NCBI RefSeq assembly: GCF_023516215.1 | Contig: NZ_CP097349.1 | Span: forward strand, 3,162,001 to 3,226,000 | Direction: 5' to 3' | From: Cytobacillus pseudoceanisediminis | Lineage (GTDB): Bacteria; Bacillota; Bacilli; Bacillales; Cytobacillaceae | Length of the DNA stretch: 64,000 bases | Part shown: in pieces, positions 23,203-58,791 of the stretch | Layout of the letters: each line of letters begins with the position of its first letter | How positions within the stretch are numbered: the first letter of the stretch is position 1 | The notes under the pieces: generated by a model | The model's database searches: none | What the model saw: only the letters and a program-made list of their open reading frames with translations | What the model was told of the DNA's origin: nothing | Program-made: the position numbers and the translations under genes

Positions 23203-24048
23203 TTACCCTGCTATTATGTTTGCTGATTTAATGGCACTGGATAGTGTGGATTTGATGCTGACATGATCAAATGTCAAACCGAGCTGTACTGCAGTCTGGG
23301 CAATTTCCGGTCTTAAGCCGGAGATTGTCGTCTTTACGCCGATCAGGCTTAGCGCTTCTATCAGCTGGAAAAGCTGATGGGCTACCATAGTATCAATCAT
23401 GACTACGCCTGAAAGGTCAAGGAACAGCTGGCTGACACCTATTTTATTGCACTGCTGAAGTGTATTTTCAAGCATGATTTTCGCTCGTGCTGTATCAATA
23501 TCCCCGACAAGAGGAAGAAGTGCGATATCTTCTGTCAGGGAAATGACCGGGGAACTTAGTTCAAGGATTAAAGCCTGCTGTGCCTGCAGCCTCTTCTGGG
23601 AATGGTTATTATACTCCTCCGTGAACCAGGTAACCACCTCACCGATGGTTCTAATGATCATCCTGCGCCATAAGGCAATTTGTTTTTCATCATATTGACC
23701 CTGGCTGATTTCAACAAACTGCTCAAGCAGGTTCAAATACTGTTCCTGGGTGTTAAAGAACTCCTGCAGGATCATCTCCAGAGGCGTACGGAGGTGTTCA
23801 TCATCCTGCGCCACTTTGACAATCCAGCTTTCCAGCTCACGAAAGAAAGCTTCTTCTTCTTTATGGAAGACTTCGGAGAACTGCTTGTGGAATTCGTAAT
23901 TTTGCTTCTTTACTCGTTCAATCACAGCGGGATCTTCTGATGTATATATCCCGCCGCTCTCTTCTTTGTCCACATTTTTATACCATTCTTCTGTTAAGTC
24001 CCAGGTTTTTTCAAGGAAAAATTGATATAGATCATGATTACGATGCAT
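23203..24048 (-). CDS. RsbR-type stressosome protein (STAS domain)
   Basis: The 281-residue protein has an N-terminal helical domain of the non-heme globin type used by RsbR paralogues (about 1-140), a linker, and a C-terminal STAS domain (about 160-275). The conserved phosphorylation segments are present: SSPVISLTEDIALLPLVGDI and DLSGVVMIDTMVAHQL, whose Thr aligns with the one phosphorylated by RsbT. Such proteins form the stressosome that triggers sigma-B in response to environmental stress. It is encoded alone, away from rsbS/rsbT. The sigma-B-type katE promoter and PAS-STAS operon elsewhere in the window fit the same network. Confidence 0.85.
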   Translation of the reverse strand: MHRNHDLYQFFLEKTWDLTEEWYKNVDKEESGGIYTSEDPAVIERVKKQNYEFHKQFSEVFHKEEEAFFRELESWIVKVAQDDEHLRTPLEMILQEFFNTQEQYLNLLEQFVEISQGQYDEKQIALWRRMIIRTIGEVVTWFTEEYNNHSQKRLQAQQALILELSSPVISLTEDIALLPLVGDIDTARAKIMLENTLQQCNKIGVSQLFLDLSGVVMIDTMVAHQLFQLIEALSLIGVKTTISGLRPEIAQTAVQLGLTFDHVSIKSTLSSAIKSANIIAG

Positions 24049-49173: not shown

Positions 49174-50758
49174 TTATGGGTTTAAAAAATCAAAGACCTG
49201 GAATGCCAGGACCACTGTAATCCAATCTTCTTTCCGGGAAAAATCCAGCTGCAGTTCACTCTCGATTTTTTTAAGCCGGTAGGCAAGGGTATTGGGATGA
49301 ATATGCATCTCTTCTGCTGTTTGTTTATGGCTTTGATTATTTGCCAGAAAGGCTTGCATCGTTTTTAAGTATTCAGGCTCCATTTTTAAAAGAGAGCCTA
49401 TTTTATCGGAGACAAATTTATTCAGCAAGCTGCGGTCGGTGTTGAGCCACAGTCTTTCAGCACCAAGCTCAGAATAAGTGATGCAGGTTTTGTGCTGATG
49501 GTTTTTGGCAAATGATAAAGCCTCGACAGCTTCCTGATAAGTATCTGTCATATCTGTTAAAGCAACCTCTCTGCCCAAACCAATGACAGCTCTGCTCACT
49601 TTTCTCTGAATATCATCAGCTAGAGACTGGTCATACCGTTTTCGACCATTCACTAGAAGTGCAATGATTTGGTTTGATTTCGTAAAAACGATTGAGGTTT
49701 CACAGTATTTCATGATGATCTGCTCAATCGAGCGGATGAGTTTTTCTTTTGAAGGATGGAGGCTGCATCCCATAAAAACCAGACTTGCAGTCCACCATCA
49801 TACAAGCGATGCTGCTTTTCTCATTCATGCGGAACTTTTCCAGAATCCTTGCATTCAGGCGTCCGCCATTGATCAAATCATGAAAGGCCTCTTCCCTTAG
49901 GTGCATTTCCTTTTCAAAAAGCGTATTCTGCCTGACAAACTCCAGTGACAAAGCCGTTGAAGCATGCTCAAGAGCAGCCTTCTGGATATTCGTCAAACGT
50001 TCAACCGGCCCATCAAGAAGGAAATATCCGAAAAGCTCGTTGGAGTTTATAATCGGAAAAGAACTGGATGGATTTATTGGTGACTCTGCAAAGATGACAG
50101 GGGAGCCCAAAATGTGACTGATGGTATCCAGGATATACGAAGTCCCCCTTCCCTCCAGCAGAATCTTCGTAAATTTTCGGTGGATATCAAGGGATTGGCT
50201 CAGTTCCTCATTTTTCCGCCTTACTTCTTCGTAAAGCTTCGAGTTCATGATGGCAATAGCCGCCTGGTCTGCCACCACCTCCAGCACTTGAAAGTCAGCT
50301 TCAGTAAACTGTACATCCTTGTCGAAGTTATCCACCACAAGCACACCGATGCAATTCTCCTTATAAACCAATGGGACAACGATACCGCTCTTTACTTCAC
50401 GCCGGTAGACTCCATTAAAAAAATGAACATAATTTGTCTCAGACATACGGCTCATATGCTCCCTGAACTCAGGTCCTGATGCAATGACGCCCTTTTTAGT
50501 CAGAAATACCTGTCCCGTCAAGGATTCACCAGACTCAAACTTCACCTGGCTCATAAAGCCTGTCTCCACCCCAACCCCGCTGGAAAAATGCAATAATCCA
50601 TCTTCCTTTAACGTGTAAAGAATGGTCGTGTCAGCATGGTCTACTAAATCAAAGGCAGCTTGCACCAGCCTCTTTAGAATCTCCTCCAGGTCAAGAGACT
50701 GGGTTAAACTGCGGTTTATTTCCAGAAGGCTTGTGATTTTGTCCTGCATGATGGTCAT
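49174..50758 (-). CDS. GAF-domain PucR/CdaR-type transcriptional regulator, frameshifted
   Basis: The N-terminal 180 residues are a GAF domain (SLDLEEILKRLVQAAFDLV, GIVVPLVYKENCIGVLVVDNF). A CdaR-like GGDEF-related middle part follows, and the C-terminus is a PucR-type helix-turn-helix (NQSHKQTAEEMHIHPNTLAY). The frame changes at the A5 run 49774-49778 (one base too many or two too few), and the restored protein has about 527 residues. Related regulators respond to purine or amino-acid breakdown products. It lies upstream of the aldehyde dehydrogenase operon on the same strand and is its likely regulator. Confidence 0.83.
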
Positions 50759-51270: not shown

Positions 51271-52475
51271 TTATCTTTCTATTGTCCGGGCCAATACCGC
51301 CCCGGCAATGAGTCCCCATACGGGTGCGCTGATATGGAGAAAGCTTATGCCTGACAAAGTGACGATGAAGGCTGCGAGCGCGCTTAGCCGGTAGCGGTTT
51401 TCGGAGAAGCCCATTTGCAGGCTGGAATGCAGGACGCCGATCAGAGCGAACCCGGCCAGCAATGAAACGAAGGCCTGCGGAAGCGATTGGATAAAGGGCA
51501 CGATTTTCCAGGCAAATATGCCAAAAACAATCGTAATAGCACCTGAAACAACAGCTCCCATATACCGCTTTTCCTTAGGCCCTGAATCCGGCCCGGCACA
51601 GATGGCGCTCATCATGCCGGCGATATTGGCACACTGGCCGCCAAAGAAGCTGGTGATTATGGAGAAGGCGCCGCTTGACGAGACGATTTTACGAATAGGC
51701 GGCTTGAAATCCTCACTTTCCAGTGCCCCAATTCCTGGCGCAGCGTCATTGCTCAATATCAGCATCGCAAGCGGCAGGGCAATCGTCACAAACCCCATCC
51801 AGCTGAATTCCGGTACTTGAATAGATGGCAGGAAATAAGCAATCTCCTTAGCCGGATTTAAATCAGCTGTCAAATACAATACCGCAAAGGCAATCGCGAC
51901 GGCCGCGAGCACAGGCGGGAACTTCTTCACATATCTCGTAAAAAGCAGAAAACTGATTAAAGCCGCTCCCCCGATAACAGGCATTTCCTGGATGGCCGGT
52001 ACGAGCTTCACGACATAGCCGGCAACCAATCCGCCAAGCATGGATGCGATGACTTCTTTCGGCACCCAGCCAATGATTTTTGTAAACAGCCCTGAAATGC
52101 CAACCAGAAAAATCAGCAGCCCGGACATCACATACCCGCCTATCAGTTCCGGATACGAATATTGGGCAGTCACAGTCGCCAAAAAGGCCGCTCCAGTAAT
52201 CGAATGCCCTCCTGTAATGGGAATCCTATATAGAAGCGGCAGGAGGATGCTGTATACACCCCCGAAAAAATAAACCGCAAACATCCAGTTAATCGTCTGC
52301 TGATCAGTAAATCCCCTGCTGACGCAGCCTGTAAAATGATCAGGGCCGGCCCCGTCATAACCAGTGTGCTTGCAATGATTCCAGATGAAATGTTTTCCGC
52401 TGTCAGATCCCTTAAGAACGAACCCTTCTGTACTTCTTGACTGTATCCGCTATGCCTTTCCTTCGGCAAACCCAT
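51271..52475 (-). CDS. BenE-family benzoate/H+ symporter, frameshifted
   Basis: The protein opens with a BenE-like segment (SGIIASTLVMTGPALIILQAA). The frame breaks at the C4 run 52313-52316; five C give AGGFTDQQTINWMFAVYFFGG and join the long downstream frame, about 401 residues and ten to twelve helices. TGGHSITGAAFLATVT and GQCANIAGMMSAICAGPDSG are the conserved substrate-side loops. The family imports aromatic acids such as benzoate; no aromatic catabolism gene is nearby, so another substrate is possible. Confidence 0.82.
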
Positions 52476-52565: not shown

Positions 52566-52593
52566 CAAAAAAAGGACCTCCTAAGAGGCCCCT
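52566..52593 (-). terminator. Intrinsic terminator of the B12-PAS-STAS operon
   Basis: On the minus strand GGGCCTC-TTAG-GAGGTCC is followed by seven T. Confidence 0.8.
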
Positions 52594-53365
52594 AACTCAT
52601 TCCGATTAAAATAAACATTTAAGACTTGCTTCAGGGATTGATCGATCTGCACCCATTCATCCAGCTTATAGGTATTCAGCACTTTTGCCAGGTTTGGCTT
52701 AATGCCAATCAATTTGATGATGCTGCCTGTCATGAAGTTGAGTGTTTTAAGCAGCTGGGTGAATTTCTCAATGCCTTTTCCTTCAATTTCCCCAACCGCC
52801 GTCAGATCAAAGAGAATTTCTTCATATTCGCCGGCAAAAACGGCTTTGAGACAGCTTTCGGAAATAACGTTTATTTTATCTGCTGTAATATCCCCAAATA
52901 AAGGAATCATGCAGAGCGTTTCCGACAGCGGAATAAACGGCCCGGACAGCTGATTTAAGCGGATCAGCACCTGCTCCAGCTCTTCTTTTTCTCCAGAAGT
53001 TCAAAGTCTGTTGAGGACAGGCGCTGCTGCAGCTGCATCAGCTTATCCATCAAGTTTTCATTAGAGCTGTCTTTTGGCAAGAATAGCATATTGGCATAAT
53101 CCTCGCTGTCCCATTGAATATGGACCTCAAATAAAGATAGCGGTGTTTCCCTGGTCTTCATATTCAGTTCCAGCTTCACAGGATCCAGCCCAGGCTCCCA
53201 GCTGTACTGAATCAGCTTTTCTATGCTTTCCTCATCGATGATTCCTTTTAAATGCCCCTCGCTCAGGTCAAAGCTTTCCCGTGCTATGCCAGAGTAGCTT
53301 ACTATTTTTCCGTTCCTGTCAGCTTTTAAAAACGCAAGCGGAAGCGGCTGATCAAAATATTGCAT
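52581..53365 (-). CDS. PAS-STAS signalling protein, frameshifted
   Basis: Residues 1-120 form a PAS domain (LAFLKADRNGKIVSYSGIARESF); a coiled linker (LLEKKEELEQVLIRLNQL) follows; residues 150-255 are a STAS domain (IPLFGDITADK, EEILFDLTAVGEIEGKG). The frame breaks at the T5 run 52986-52990; six T join the parts into about 261 residues. ATG 53365 follows GGAGGA and overlaps the B12-sensor gene by 14 bases. The STAS segment keeps DLTAV but has EG where RsbR and RsbS have a phosphorylated Ser/Thr. By design it resembles the LOV-STAS protein YtvA, but with a PAS domain, and may be the output of the B12 sensor. Confidence 0.83.
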
Positions 53366-53995
53366 TTTGCTGTCCTCCCGCTTCATTGTTTTGCAGCCAT
53401 TCCTTTGTTTCCGGCAAATCCTTTAGAATGACCGTATGATCGGAGCAATAAGGAAGCAGGTCATACTTCCCGGCTAAGCGCCCGCCAAGAAGAACAGCCG
53501 GCTTATGCGTCAGCTTGGCAAAGGCTTCGGCATATTCCTTCAGCTTCGGCAGGTGATAGACGATGCTGACCGATAGACCGATTACACTCGGCTTCCAGTC
53601 CTTTGCCGTTTTCAGTGCATATTCCAAAGGAAGGCTCGGGCCAAAGTACTTTGTCTCCCAGCCGTGCTCTTCAAAAAGGCTGTTGACCATTTTCAGGCCA
53701 ATATAATGCTGTTCCCCATCCAGGCAGAGAAACATGGCTTTTTGGTTTGATTGTCTTTTTCCTGCCGGTATGCGAGCTTTGAGAGGACAAAATCACATGT
53801 TGCTGTTGCCAGATGTTCATCTGCCACAGTGATTTGATTCGTCTCCCATAGGTGGCCGATGTGCTGCATCGCAGGTGTAATCAGATTTTGATAAACTTCA
53901 AGGCGCGATAGCTGCGGTTGCTTTTGAATGTTCTCCCAAACTTTCGCAGAATCACCTTGAAGCAATAAGGAAGCGAGTGTTTCAGCGTGGTTCAT
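53352..53995 (-). CDS. Stand-alone CarH-like cobalamin-binding sensor, frameshifted
   Basis: ATG 53995 after GGGAGGAG. The frame breaks at the T5 run 53739-53743; six T give KKAMFLCLDGEQHYIGLKMV and 214 residues. Residues 1-80 are a B12-binding helical bundle carrying W50-x9-E60-H61, the Wx9EH motif of CarH photoreceptors; residues 87-214 are a Rossmann B12-binding domain with E95-x-H97-x-x-G100, the lower axial ligand motif, plus SVSIVYHLPKL and LLGGRLAG. No DNA-binding MerR domain is present. By homology it should bind adenosylcobalamin and respond to light or to B12 level. It is linked to PAS-STAS and ABM genes, not to a methyltransferase. Confidence 0.85.
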
Positions 53996-53996
53996 C

Positions 53997-54362
53997 TTAC
54001 ACTCCTCCCTTAACAGGTTCACCTTTCAAAACAGCAATGGCTTCCGCCAGATAAAGATGGAATCTCTCTGCCTTTTCAGGAGAATCGTTATCTTCAGCCA
54101 GCACAGCCTGAATGATTTCGAAATTGTCGATCAGATGCCGGGTATTCATCCCATGCTTCTTTAAAATGCCATCAAGCCATACGGCATAATCAGTGAAAAA
54201 AGCAGATTGGTTCAGCTCATACGCTGTCTCGAGATGCTTCATATGATGATGGTTATCTTCGCGGCACTTCTCTTTTCCTTGTTCGCCAAACCGCTCCAGC
54301 AGGAAAGGCTCGCGTTCATAGATCTTTTCGGTTACATGGTTTACGATCTTTTCAAAGCTCAC
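53997..54362 (-). CDS. Helical protein of unknown function linked to the B12 sensor
   Basis: A 121-residue, all-helical, soluble protein. Notable is EKCREDNHHHMKHLETAYELN near residues 31-50, followed by DYAVWLDGILKKHGMNTRHLIDNFEII. I recall segments of this kind, with conserved DNxHH...LE and W/HG residues, next to or fused with cobalamin-binding domains in other bacteria, so it may be a partner or sensory domain of the same signalling unit. It overlaps the ABM gene by four bases and ends one base before the B12-sensor ATG. Confidence 0.72.
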   Translation of the reverse strand: MSFEKIVNHVTEKIYEREPFLLERFGEQGKEKCREDNHHHMKHLETAYELNQSAFFTDYAVWLDGILKKHGMNTRHLIDNFEIIQAVLAEDNDSPEKAERFHLYLAEAIAVLKGEPVKGGV

Positions 54363-54664
54363 TTAGCCACCACCTTGAATTGCGAAACTTTTGGAACCAC
54401 TGCTGCCAGTTCCTGATCCGGATACTTTTTCTCTAAATCATGGATTCTCTTAAAATCCTCGCTGCGAACCCAATTTAAATAATTTTCCTTTGTATCAAAG
54501 ATGAGCTGCACCGTCAGTTCGCCAGGGCGCTTATCATTCTGCAGCAGCAGAAAATCGATAAACCCCTCCGCCTGATCGACCGACCGCGAGCGATTTTTAT
54601 ATATGCTAATGACTTCCTCCGACTTTTCGTCGGGTACGTCAAATGTTGAAAAGACTGTATACAT
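54359..54664 (-). CDS. Antibiotic biosynthesis monooxygenase (ABM)-domain protein
   Basis: A 101-residue ferredoxin-like ABM fold (HmoB/IsdG relatives). The heme-contact Trp and His are present with the right spacing (YLNWVRSEDFKRIHDL), but the N-terminal Asn of IsdG-type heme oxygenases is not seen in MYTVFSTFDV. It may bind heme or act as a small dimeric monooxygenase. TTGGAGGAG precedes the ATG. It is the first gene of the four-gene operon; a sigma-A-type promoter ATGACA-16-TATACT lies at 54732-54705. Confidence 0.78.
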   Translation of the reverse strand: MYTVFSTFDVPDEKSEEVISIYKNRSRSVDQAEGFIDFLLLQNDKRPGELTVQLIFDTKENYLNWVRSEDFKRIHDLEKKYPDQELAAVVPKVSQFKVVAK

Positions 54665-54704: not shown

Positions 54705-54732
54705 AGTATAACATACTGATTGGGATTGTCAT
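54705..54732 (-). promoter_or_regulatory. Probable sigma-A promoter of the ABM-B12-STAS operon
   Basis: On the minus strand ATGACA (54732-54727) and TATACT (54710-54705) are 16 bases apart, 41 bases before the ABM start. Confidence 0.5.
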
Positions 54733-54812
54733 TTTGGAAGGGTTATAGGGAATGGCTGAAGTTTTTTGTTTGCTGGAGGAATAACTGAAGCTTTTTCGTC
54801 GTTATTTTGGAT

Positions 54813-55487
54813 GATTAACTAGCATTTTCTCGCTGCTCTCCACATTTTCCTCTATAATCCGCTTGATTAGCTACCATTTTCTCTACTCTCTCCACGTTTT
54901 CGTCGTTAATCCGGTTGATTAGCTACCATTTTTCTACCTCTCTCCACGTTTTCGTCGTTAATCCGGTTGATTAGCTACCATTTTTCTACCTCTCTCCACG
55001 TTTTCGTCGTTAATCCGCTTGATTAGCTACCATTTTCTCTACTCTCTCCACGTTTTCGTCGTTGATCCGGTTGATTAGCTACCATTTTCTCTACTCTCTC
55101 CACGTTTTCGTCGTTAATCCGGTTGATTAGCTACCATTTTTCTACCTCTCTCCACGTTTTCGTCGTTAATCCGGTTGATTAGCTACCATTTTTCTACCTC
55201 TCTTCACGTTTTCGTCGTTAATCCGGATGATTAACTACCATCTTCTCTCCTCTCCCCACTTTTCGTCGTTAATCCGGTTGATTAGCTACCATTTTTCTAC
55301 CTCTCTCCACGTTTTCGTCGTTAATCCGGTTGATTAGCTACCATTTTCTCTACTCTCTCCACGTTTTCGTCGTTGATCCGGTTGATTAGCTACCATTTTC
55401 TCTACTCTCTCCACGTTTTCGTCGTTAATCCGGATGATTAACTACCATCTTCTCTCCTCTCCCCACTTTTCGTCCTTAATCCCCCTT
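54813..55487. repeat. 13-copy tandem array, 52-bp unit
   Basis: Units start with GATTAGCTACC or GATTAACTACC at 54813, 54865, 54917, 54969, 55021, 55073, 55125, 55177, 55229, 55280, 55332, 55384 and 55436. Twelve spacings are 52 bases except one of 51. Each unit has GATTAGCTACCATTTT, a C/T-rich middle, CCACGTTTTCGTCG and TTAATCCGGTT. Three variants occur: one with TTTTTCTACCTC, one with TTTTCTCTACTC, one with TCTTCTCTCCTC. The first unit is degenerate. No gene lies from 54665 to 55731; besides the array and promoters I see nothing else there. Confidence 0.95.
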
Positions 55488-55731: not shown

Positions 55732-58700
55732 ATGAAATTATTAAAAATGATTGTGCAGAGAAAGATTTTGGTTGCCCTTATGACGGTGCTGATTTTGGCC
55801 ATCGGCAGCTTTTCCATTATCGAATTGGATAAAGAGCTGATGCCGCCGGTAACGATGGATGGCGCTTATGTGGAGGTCAATGCCGGTGAAATGGCAGCTA
55901 TTGAAGTGGAGCGATCGATAACCAACCCCCTGGAGCAGCAAATCAGGGGGATTGAGGGAGTAGAATCGGTTGACTCCACATCGGCGATTGGACGGAGCTC
56001 ACTTCAAATTACGTTTGAACAGGGTCGGGGCGATGAACTTTCTAAAGAAGTAGAAACGGCTGCAAACGCCGCTAAAGGTGAGAATGCCGCGATCACGGAT
56101 GTTACTTCAGGGCAGTATGGGACCACGCAAAGCTATGAATTCTATATGGATGTATCCGGCGGCAGCATGGAGGATATGACCGCTTTTGCCAAAAAGGTTC
56201 TTGAACCGCGCCTGGAAGCATTGCCGGAAGTCCGCGACGTATCGCTTGCAGGAGTTCAGGAGCACGAGGTAATCATTGAACTGGACCGCAGCAAATTGGC
56301 TGAAAAAGGGCTGGATTCTACAGCTGTGATTGGTGCGATTCAGCAGGTTAACAGCGAAGCCACACTGGGAGAACTCAGCAGGGATGCCAGCTCTCCTTCC
56401 CTCCGCTGGAATACGAAGCTCGAAAATGTGGAGGATGTACAGAATATTAAAATCCCATCACCAAATGGATTTGTTGATTTGAAAGATGTTGCAGATGTTC
56501 AATTTCAGCCGATTGAAAGCTCATCGTTCGTCTGGAAAAACGGAACAAAGGATTTCATCTTTGTCCAGGTTGGCCGTGCTGCTAATGCCACGCAAATTGA
56601 AATGGCAGCTGCGGTCCGCGATGAAGTGAAAAACATCCGCGAAGACGGGCTGGTAAAAGGCTTTGAGCTGAACGAAATGGTGGCACAGGCAGATTATGTG
56701 CAGGAATCAATTGATGGCGTGACCGGCAACATTTTAACCGGCGGCGTCATTGCCATTGCCATTCTTTTAATCTTTTTGAGGAATGTAAGGGCCACCTTTA
56801 TCATCGGACTGTCGATCCCCACTTCCATCCTTCTGACGTTTACGGCGATGTGGGTTTTTGATTACAGCTTTAATATCCTGACCCTGATTGGGCTTGGCCT
56901 GGGGATCGGGATGATGGTGGATTCTTCGATTGTCATCATTGAATCCATCTATCGAAAAAAGGAACAGGGACTTGGCAGGCTTGAGTCCGTTTTGGAAGGA
57001 ACGAAAGAGGTTTCATCAGCAGTTATTGCTTCGATGCTCACTACGATCGTGGTATTCCTGCCGATCGGCCTCATTGGCGGCGATGTGGGTACATTCATGA
57101 TCATGCTGTCTGCAGTTGTAGCCATTACACTCATCAGTTCGGTTATTGTCTCGTTTACTTTGATCCCTTCGCTTTCAGAAAAATTGCTGAAACTGCCCAA
57201 GCCGAAGAAGGAGCGCAAAGAAGGGCCGATTATGCGCCTTTATAGCCGGATTGTGGCCTGGACCATCCGGAAAAAGCGGTACAGTTTTGCAGTCATTGCG
57301 ATTTTCTTCCTGATGTTTGCCGGTTCATTAACGCTTGTGACGAAAATTCCGATGACGATTATGCCGGATATGTTTAACCGCTACACAGAGCTGATGGTTG
57401 ACCTGGAAACAGGTATTTCTGTTGAAGATAAAGAAGACATCGCTCAAGGAATCAATCAGAAACTGCAGTCGATTGAAGATGTAGAGTCCAATTATGTCAT
57501 GGACAGCGGCGGCATGTTCTATGCAATCATCAATATGACAAAAGGCGATGACATTTCAAGAGAGCAAAAAGATGTCAATGAAGATATTATGAAGCAACTT
57601 CGCAGCCTATCGGATTCCCTTCCGGTTAAAAATGTCCAGAGTGCGATGTCGGCTGGCGGCGGATCACCGGTCCAGGTGAATATTACGGGCGAAGATTTTG
57701 CAGATCTGCAGAAGCTTACCGGTGATTTTTCTGAGGAGCTCGAAAAGATTGACGGCATCGTCGGTGTGACCAACTCAATGGAGCGTACGTCTGAGGAGCA
57801 GGTTGTTGTATTAAAAGAAGAAGCGATTGAAACGGCAGGCTTAACCCAGCTGCAAATCAGGCAGTTTATTGAGCAGGCGTTCATGGAAATGCCTGTCGGG
57901 GAAATGTCCATGAATGAAGAAAATGTGCCGCTTGCCTTGAAATGGGCTGAGAAGACAGATTCCAGGTCAGATCTTCTGGATTTAAAGGTTCCAACTGCCC
58001 AGGGCGAGAAAGCATTATCTTCCTTTATTGAATTGAAGAGTGTAGATACACCAAATGAAATTTCCCATCATGACGGGGAGCGCTTCATCTCCATTTCTGC
58101 TGATATTGAAGGCAAGGACCTTGGTGCCGTGAACCGGGATGTCCAAAAGCTGATCAATGATTTTGATGCACCTGCTGGCTATAGCGTGGCAGCTGCCGGG
58201 GATCTTGAACAGCAGCAGGAATTAATCATGGATATGGTGTTTGTTTTAGCAATTGCGATTTTCCTTGTGTACCTGGTGATGGCTGTCCAATTTAACCACC
58301 TTGGCCATCCGCTGATCGTCATGTCTGTCATTCCGATGACCATCGTCGGGGTCATTCTCGGTTTGTTTCTGACACAGATGGAGCTTAGCGTAATGTCAGG
58401 AATGGGAATTGTGATGCTGATTGGGATTGTGCTCAATAACGCCATCCTGCTGATCGACCGTACGAATCAGCTCCGCCTGGAAGGCTTCTCTGTTGAAGTG
58501 GCCCTTCTGGAAGCAGGCAAAAACCGGATCCGGCCGATATTCATGACTACCCTGACAACGGTTGGCGGAATGCTGCCCCTTGCCCTTGCATCGGGAACTT
58601 CCGGCAACTATCAGGCGCCAATGGCAACGGTCATTATTTCCGGCCTGCTGTTTGCGACCTTTATCACGCTGCTGCTGATCCCGGCGGTTTACCGCTTGTT

Positions 58701-58791
58701 CACCACATCCAGCCTCCGCTTTGGCTGGCTGAAGAAAAAGCAAGAAAAGAAAAGCAGCGATGTTAAAGTGATTCCTGAGACCATTAATTAA
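55732..58791 (+). CDS. swrC: RND-family efflux transporter permease (SwrC/AcrB-like)
   Basis: A 1019-residue RND transporter with twelve helices and two large extracytoplasmic loops (about 40-320 and 560-850). The N-terminus reads LLKMIVQRKILVALMTVLI and the loop opens with ELMPPVTMDGAYVEV; helix 4 has LGLGIGMMVDSSIVIIESIY, with one of the paired Asp replaced by Ser as is common in Gram-positive pumps. It resembles SwrC/YerP of Bacillus subtilis, needed for surfactin resistance and swarming. AAGGAG precedes the ATG. Transcribed alone; no membrane-fusion protein gene is adjacent. Confidence 0.9.
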   Translation: MKLLKMIVQRKILVALMTVLILAIGSFSIIELDKELMPPVTMDGAYVEVNAGEMAAIEVERSITNPLEQQIRGIEGVESVDSTSAIGRSSLQITFEQGRGDELSKEVETAANAAKGENAAITDVTSGQYGTTQSYEFYMDVSGGSMEDMTAFAKKVLEPRLEALPEVRDVSLAGVQEHEVIIELDRSKLAEKGLDSTAVIGAIQQVNSEATLGELSRDASSPSLRWNTKLENVEDVQNIKIPSPNGFVDLKDVADVQFQPIESSSFVWKNGTKDFIFVQVGRAANATQIEMAAAVRDEVKNIREDGLVKGFELNEMVAQADYVQESIDGVTGNILTGGVIAIAILLIFLRNVRATFIIGLSIPTSILLTFTAMWVFDYSFNILTLIGLGLGIGMMVDSSIVIIESIYRKKEQGLGRLESVLEGTKEVSSAVIASMLTTIVVFLPIGLIGGDVGTFMIMLSAVVAITLISSVIVSFTLIPSLSEKLLKLPKPKKERKEGPIMRLYSRIVAWTIRKKRYSFAVIAIFFLMFAGSLTLVTKIPMTIMPDMFNRYTELMVDLETGISVEDKEDIAQGINQKLQSIEDVESNYVMDSGGMFYAIINMTKGDDISREQKDVNEDIMKQLRSLSDSLPVKNVQSAMSAGGGSPVQVNITGEDFADLQKLTGDFSEELEKIDGIVGVTNSMERTSEEQVVVLKEEAIETAGLTQLQIRQFIEQAFMEMPVGEMSMNEENVPLALKWAEKTDSRSDLLDLKVPTAQGEKALSSFIELKSVDTPNEISHHDGERFISISADIEGKDLGAVNRDVQKLINDFDAPAGYSVAAAGDLEQQQELIMDMVFVLAIAIFLVYLVMAVQFNHLGHPLIVMSVIPMTIVGVILGLFLTQMELSVMSGMGIVMLIGIVLNNAILLIDRTNQLRLEGFSVEVALLEAGKNRIRPIFMTTLTTVGGMLPLALASGTSGNYQAPMATVIISGLLFATFITLLLIPAVYRLFTTSSLRFGWLKKKQEKKSSDVKVIPETIN

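Follow-up and report, generated by a model that had tools for sequence, protein, structure and literature searches.

Inspection of a 64,000-nucleotide stretch of the genome of Cytobacillus pseudoceanisediminis (contig NZ_CP097349.1, positions 3,162,001 to 3,226,000; hereafter the window) revealed a four-gene operon on the minus strand (52581..54664), which probably encodes a split photocobilin signalling system: a photoglobin, a CarH-like B12 protein and an ABM protein, whose output would pass through a PAS-STAS protein to the stressosome and sigma-B. In order of transcription, the genes encode (i) an ABM-fold protein of 101 aa (54359..54664; Pfam PF03992, 49.3 bits), (ii) a stand-alone photoglobin, i.e. 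a globin with the biliprotein fold, of 121 aa and 121 codons (53997..54362; assigned by its fold and by residues D36, W62 and C33), (iii) a CarH-type cobalamin-binding protein, of 214 aa if intact (53352..53995; both B12-binding domains found with Pfam) and (iv) a PAS-like plus STAS protein (52581..53386; STAS found with Pfam), which has 268 aa in Cytobacillus oceanisediminis 2691 (L076). The first-pass annotation of this DNA had placed the operon correctly as to coordinates, strand, gene order and overlaps, and had proposed that B12-based sensing is relayed to a STAS pathway. Its observation is partly confirmed and its interpretation partly supported: the parts and their co-conservation hold, but the proposal missed the globin and overstated the likeness of the PAS part to a LOV domain.

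The 121-aa protein, previously listed as merely helical, has a recognizable photoglobin/phycobiliprotein fold, with a five-helix globin domain of the biliprotein type. All of the matches listed by Foldseek (50 rows, Foldseek's own choice) are titled biliproteins or photocobilins, except for one that is titled only 'Bacterial fluorescent protein'. An RsbRD-type N-terminal helical domain, considered by eye for this protein, was dropped on these biliprotein-fold matches, and a heme-binding globin was set aside in view of the same titles. Since the second protein of the operon is a bilin-type globin, the operon can be read as a known sensor type, the photocobilin, in split form.

According to the study describing two photocobilins (PMC10979010), Asp270 of SasPcob holds the rings of biliverdin and Trp296 its D ring; in AbDPcob, which binds biliverdin weakly, His replaces this Asp. 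Positions in the 8j2w chain are shifted by 6, as verified in the B12-protein alignment at W61, E71/H72 and H108. With this correction, D36 of the globin aligned with Asp270 and W62 with Trp296 of SasPcob, and the His of AbDPcob fell in the D36 column. D36 is conserved in 79/80 and W62 in 80/80 globin loci (here and below, the best 80 of 103 confirmed genome-scan loci). Residue C33, which is Thr in SasPcob, lies at the position of the phycocyanin/phycobiliprotein Cys and is kept in 75 of the 80 loci; this placement makes covalent attachment of a bilin through C33 possible.

A fused form of the two sensor proteins was identified in Paenibacillus sp. TCA20, whose genome also contains the split form (L120). 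The fused protein of 353 aa (at L237:1372-2935, minus strand) consists of a globin at the N-terminus (E 1.7e-16) and a B12 domain at the C-terminus (7.9e-33), both of the operon's families, and SasPcob ranks first among its PDB matches (3.9e-19). The pigment-site Asp and Trp are retained in it, as are W-x9-EH and ExHxxG, and an ABM gene of the operon's family is located directly 5′ of its gene. The occurrence of this fusion beside the same ABM neighbour supports the prediction that the separate globin and B12 proteins form one complex.

The B12 protein had been described as CarH-type, lacking both a MerR domain and a methyltransferase partner, and the scans agree with each of these statements. 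The protein does contain W50-x9-E60-H61 and E95-x-H97-x-x-G100, with residue numbers verified on its sequence, the Pfam scan of the protein found no MerR domain, and no methyltransferase was found among the six flanking open reading frames (ORFs) scanned, one of them without any family. A methyltransferase corrinoid protein was rejected on the last of these results and on the CarH-type motifs. The best PDB match is SasPcob (2e-13), followed by 8jbs (5e-12), with CarH at 2e-6; in NCBIfam, CarH ranks first with 48.9 bits, below its curated cut-off of 400. Among 64 B12 proteins from adjacent or nearby loci, W-x9-EH is found in 63 and ExHxxG in 63, the misses being L113 (gene in pieces) and L141. 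Both motifs are also kept in 18/18 B12 proteins encoded at loci separate from the globin. A MerR-B12 CarH-like regulator (307 aa; L004) is encoded elsewhere in the genome of the window.

The four-gene arrangement is conserved far beyond chance. The order ABM-globin-B12-PAS is complete in 53 of the 80 loci, which confirms the co-occurrence of the four families and excludes their random scattering; the remaining loci comprise 15 with ABM-globin only, 4 with ABM-globin-B12, 4 from Paenibacillus with the globin and a divergent B12-PAS pair, and 4 of other forms. The ABM gene lies immediately 5′ of the globin gene in 74 loci, with an exact 4-nt overlap in 71 of them, and the globin and B12 genes adjoin, yet are separate, in 58/80. 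A search of 18 genomes in which the globin lacks an adjoining B12 gene (17 having ABM-globin and one only the globin) showed that each encodes a stand-alone B12 protein elsewhere, with a PAS gene adjoining it in 18/18 (17 by profile, one by eye). The globin is present in 28 of 61 related genomes; the B12 protein, at E 1e-20 or better, occurs in 30, which comprise those 28 together with G031 and G054 (Fisher p 2e-15; within genus 6e-9; shared ancestry uncorrected in both values). At two Rossellomorea loci (L188 and L189), a gene for a beta-type carbonic-anhydrase-like protein directly adjoins the B12-PAS pair, as noted by eye.

The STAS domain of the fourth protein is of the RsbR type (BLAST ranks RsbR of the same genome first, 7e-12), and the helical linker carries the ELS-P motif. 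The first RsbR phospho-site reads Thr or Ser in 25/34 STAS domains. For the PAS part the sequence support is weak (PF00989 in 3/24 members, best E 2e-4); its profile gave no match in the PDB, and the LOV Cys motif occurs in 0/34 and 0/24 rows. The YtvA_fam model of NCBIfam scored 51.5 bits, against a curated cut-off of 250, and matched over the STAS part only. Thus, of the suggested YtvA-like output, the RsbR/YtvA-type STAS stands, but the PAS part is not LOV-like and the second phospho-Thr is mostly missing (see below). The assumption of a stressosome in the host is borne out by an rsb-type operon, in which rsbR, rsbS, an rsbT-sized gene, rsbU, rsbV, genes of 125 and 264 codons and a PP2C-type gene form one run (names assigned from gene order and family). 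An RsbR-like STAS paralogue is also encoded in the window (23233-23541, minus strand; G000:C1:3185233-3185541; L149).

The output is swapped among relatives. The same PAS is fused to HisKA-HATPase in L055, L057 and L090; the phospho-accepting His of HisKA is kept in L090 and reads Asp in L055 (5568-6674) and L057 (5606-6712), and the latter two are likely pseudo-kinases within a putative photoreceptor operon. At L111, L120, L122, L171, L181, L185 and other loci, the B12 gene is accompanied by a PAS with a C-terminal hairpin homologous to HisKA (E about 1e-6) and without a kinase domain. In L050 (= L091), the ABM-globin-B12 set has instead an RsbR-like STAS gene 5′ of ABM. Both STAS and STAS-less PAS forms occur together in at least three genomes (G061, G063, G071), and the STAS form accompanies the kinase form in G016, G033 and G080. 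RsbT was surveyed in 56 genomes (those of 48 of the 80 named loci plus eight G-labelled ones), of which 51 gave a match of E 1e-15 or better. The type of PAS could be assigned in 53 genomes, and all 41 with PAS-STAS have a strong RsbT match (Fisher p 4e-5 or 3e-4, with L132, described below, counted as lacking or as having RsbT, respectively; the contrast lies within one clade).

IsdG-type heme oxygenases use an Asn-Trp-His triad, in which Asn is catalytic. The ABM protein is nearest to the HmuQ/IsdG heme oxygenases (NCBIfam HmuQ 44.7 bits against a cut-off of 130, others lower), and the Trp and the His of the triad are each kept in 73/74 ABM proteins. No HO1-type heme oxygenase was found in the 61 related genomes, and bilin reductase (FDBR, PF05996) was found in 0/61, the control being positive in Synechococcus only. 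The genome of the window contains five other ABM-family genes. These results suggest that biliverdin would be provided by ABM-type or other enzymes, and the ABM protein of the operon is a putative bilin supplier or carrier.

In the proposed mechanism, the photoglobin would bind a linear tetrapyrrole, most likely biliverdin, which the ABM protein would make from heme or carry to the globin, and would dock laterally onto the CarH-like B12 protein, like the fused globin in SasPcob. Without light, the B12 protein would hold adenosylcobalamin and form a CarH-type dimer. Green light, acting via B12, or red light, acting via the bilin, would break the Co-C bond and alter the B12 protein, and this change would reach, through direct contact, the PAS domain of the adjacent protein, whose STAS domain would act as an RsbR/YtvA-like co-antagonist on the stressosome and so tune sigma-B. 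A more far-reaching version, which we put forward tentatively, is a trans-acting two-pigment photoreceptor of Bacillales, in which the photoglobin (perhaps with biliverdin held covalently through a Cys at the phycobiliprotein position, which the photocobilins described so far do not have) is the antenna of a CarH-like B12 switch, a new type of ABM heme monooxygenase is responsible for supply, and PAS is an exchangeable adaptor that connects to the stressosome, to a kinase or to a pseudo-kinase. If true, light from green to red would feed into sigma-B in spore-formers that are not phototrophic.

Several observations weigh against the proposed system. C33 is absent from 5/80 loci and from the fused globin-B12 protein, which has Thr. 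The position of His137 of SasPcob, which contacts biliverdin, is occupied here, by alignment, by Tyr, as in 57/64 B12 proteins. The position of the catalytic Asn, placed by alignment with 1iuj, reads Ser in 72/74 ABM proteins. Two genomes (G016 and G033) carry an ABM-B12-PAS-STAS locus without globin, together with a second locus, B12-PAS-kinase-globin, without ABM; since the globin there sits away from ABM, the tie between these two genes is not absolute. The second RsbR phospho-Thr is missing from 32/34 STAS domains and kept as Thr in 2/34. The only PAS in 12 of the 53 typed genomes is STAS-less, and in at least six further genomes the STAS form is accompanied by a kinase or pseudo-kinase form, so sigma-B is not the target everywhere. 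Among these 12 genomes, RsbT gives a strong match in six, a weak one in L132 (3e-16) and no match in five; the six without a strong match are all Paenibacillus, and the RsbT correlation comes from this genus alone.

The same complex could also operate without sensing light, by monitoring adenosylcobalamin together with heme/bilin (or oxygen) status and reporting through PAS to STAS or a kinase. CarH-like domains respond to the presence of adenosylcobalamin as well as to light, the host bacteria are non-phototrophs, and a gene of heme-oxygenase fold is translationally coupled to that of the globin. Nevertheless, both the Trp of the adenosyl pocket and the EH pair, which are typical of photoreactive CarH proteins, are retained in the B12 proteins of adjacent or nearby loci and in those of split loci alike (63/64 and 18/18), and the closest solved relative of the B12 protein is a photoreceptor, which makes this explanation rather unlikely. 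We consider it at least as unlikely that the globin has lost bilin binding, as AbDPcob partly has, and merely stabilizes a green-light B12 sensor: the residue that is His in AbDPcob is Asp in nearly all of the globins, and the Trp is invariant. The weak binding of biliverdin reported for AbDPcob (PMC10979010) and the lack of HO1-type enzymes in the 61 genomes would agree with such a loss.

It is also possible, albeit doubtful, that the PAS-STAS protein functions outside the stressosome and drives another partner switch or a phosphorelay, perhaps in sporulation. The RsbR type of the STAS domain, its occurrence only where RsbT was found (41/41) and the RsbR-like gene adjoining the ABM-globin-B12 set in L050 argue instead for the stressosome; the joining of the same PAS to HisKA-HATPase or to the HisKA-related hairpin in relatives, and the missing second phospho-Thr, point the other way. 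The originally proposed destination, a STAS/sigma-B pathway, is supported by the STAS type and the stressosome operon, but the kinase-type outputs of relatives mean that sigma-B is not the sole possible target of the split photocobilin system.

The photocobilins SasPcob and AbDPcob (PMC10979010) join a CarH-type B12 domain to a biliverdin globin and resemble the operon proteins in fold, in the Asp/Trp residues and in W-x9-EH and E/DxH. The operon differs from them in encoding the globin and the B12 domain as separate genes rather than one polypeptide, in adding a translationally coupled ABM gene and a dedicated PAS-STAS gene, and in having Cys at the phycobiliprotein attachment position of the globin in most loci. 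The same study shows that photocobilins of the stand-alone kind are able to influence a partner protein through direct contact, predicts STAS partners for SasPcob and regards the function of the stand-alone forms as less evident than the role of the enzyme fusion. Rockwell et al. 2023 (PMC10151467) describe other bacteria in which genes for a globin, a B12-binding protein and a bilin reductase are clustered, with biliverdin-specific globins. The BBAG-2/pre-2 clusters among them likewise have separate, adjoining globin and B12-binding genes, sometimes with a heme oxygenase, and BBAG-2 is biliverdin-specific; these clusters include a pre-PcyA bilin reductase, which has no counterpart in our 61 genomes, and the operon has ABM in place of the heme oxygenase and PAS-STAS in addition. 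The Bacillales operon fits between the Rockwell clusters and the stand-alone photocobilins.

YtvA (LOV-STAS) and the RsbR co-antagonists share with the fourth protein a cytosolic sensor domain, the helical ELS-P linker and an RsbR-type STAS; unlike them, it has a PAS that is not LOV, a predicted separate complex as its photosensor, and mostly lacks the second phospho-Thr. The B12 protein shares the CarH motifs with the CarH/LitR and AerR group of B12 photoreceptors; it has no MerR domain, and its partners are different. AerR, which lacks a DNA-binding domain, is reported to work by contact with CrtJ. The ABM protein resembles the IsdG/HmuQ heme oxygenases in its fold and in the conserved Trp and His, and differs from them in having Ser for the catalytic Asn and in scoring far below the curated cut-offs.

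Compared with these systems, three features are new: the split form with a coupled ABM gene, a PAS-STAS protein as the named partner, and outputs that are swapped among relatives. No description of a split photocobilin/PAS-STAS pathway was found in a literature search that covered titles, the openings of abstracts and passages of selected papers, a key photoglobin paper (Schneider et al. 2022, PMC8717448) lying outside its range. With a dedicated partner (PAS-STAS, kinase or pseudo-kinase) and a candidate source of bilin both specified by a conserved operon, the role of stand-alone photocobilins can be tested in Bacillaceae that are easy to grow. If the proposed system is real, the light inputs of the sigma-B network would extend beyond the LOV protein YtvA, and non-photosynthetic bacteria could sense green and red light through a two-pigment (bilin and B12) sensor made of separate proteins.

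The first-pass picture of four overlapping genes is right as to order and overlap, but two of the genes are not open in the window. Each is broken by a one-base gap: the B12 gene reads as ORFs 53693-54022 and 53352-53735, the PAS-STAS gene as ORFs 52964-53386 and 52581-52970. Compared with C. oceanisediminis 2691, in which all four genes are intact and open, the window shows 99.3% identity across 10.4 kb with 12 one-base gaps, eight of which are bases missing from the window. Because such gaps also cut neighbouring genes, for a PucR-type regulator with a GAF domain and a BenE-type permease (49174-50758 and 51271-52475), the split genes look like the product of an assembly error, with real decay in the strain as a further possibility.

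A promoter-like site with an extended -10 (ATGACA-16-TATACT; 54705..54732, minus strand; 10/12 consensus matches) precedes the operon, and a terminator-like hairpin with a T run (52572..52593, minus strand; consensus match only) lies at its 3′ end. By consensus matching alone, the stretch contains six promoter-like sites (3.6 in shuffles) and four terminator-like sites (2.7 in shuffles). Extended -10 motifs occur 5′ of ABM in 38/74 relatives, against 12 expected by shuffling, and a loose sigma-B promoter pattern occurs in 8/74 upstream regions, against 3.2 expected (maximum 10), which is not significant. A plasmid, phage or mobile origin of the operon was rejected, as no DNA match was found in plasmids or phages. 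Between the operon and a gene for an AcrB-type efflux protein (55732-58791), a 52-bp unit is arrayed in 13.3 copies (54793-55482).
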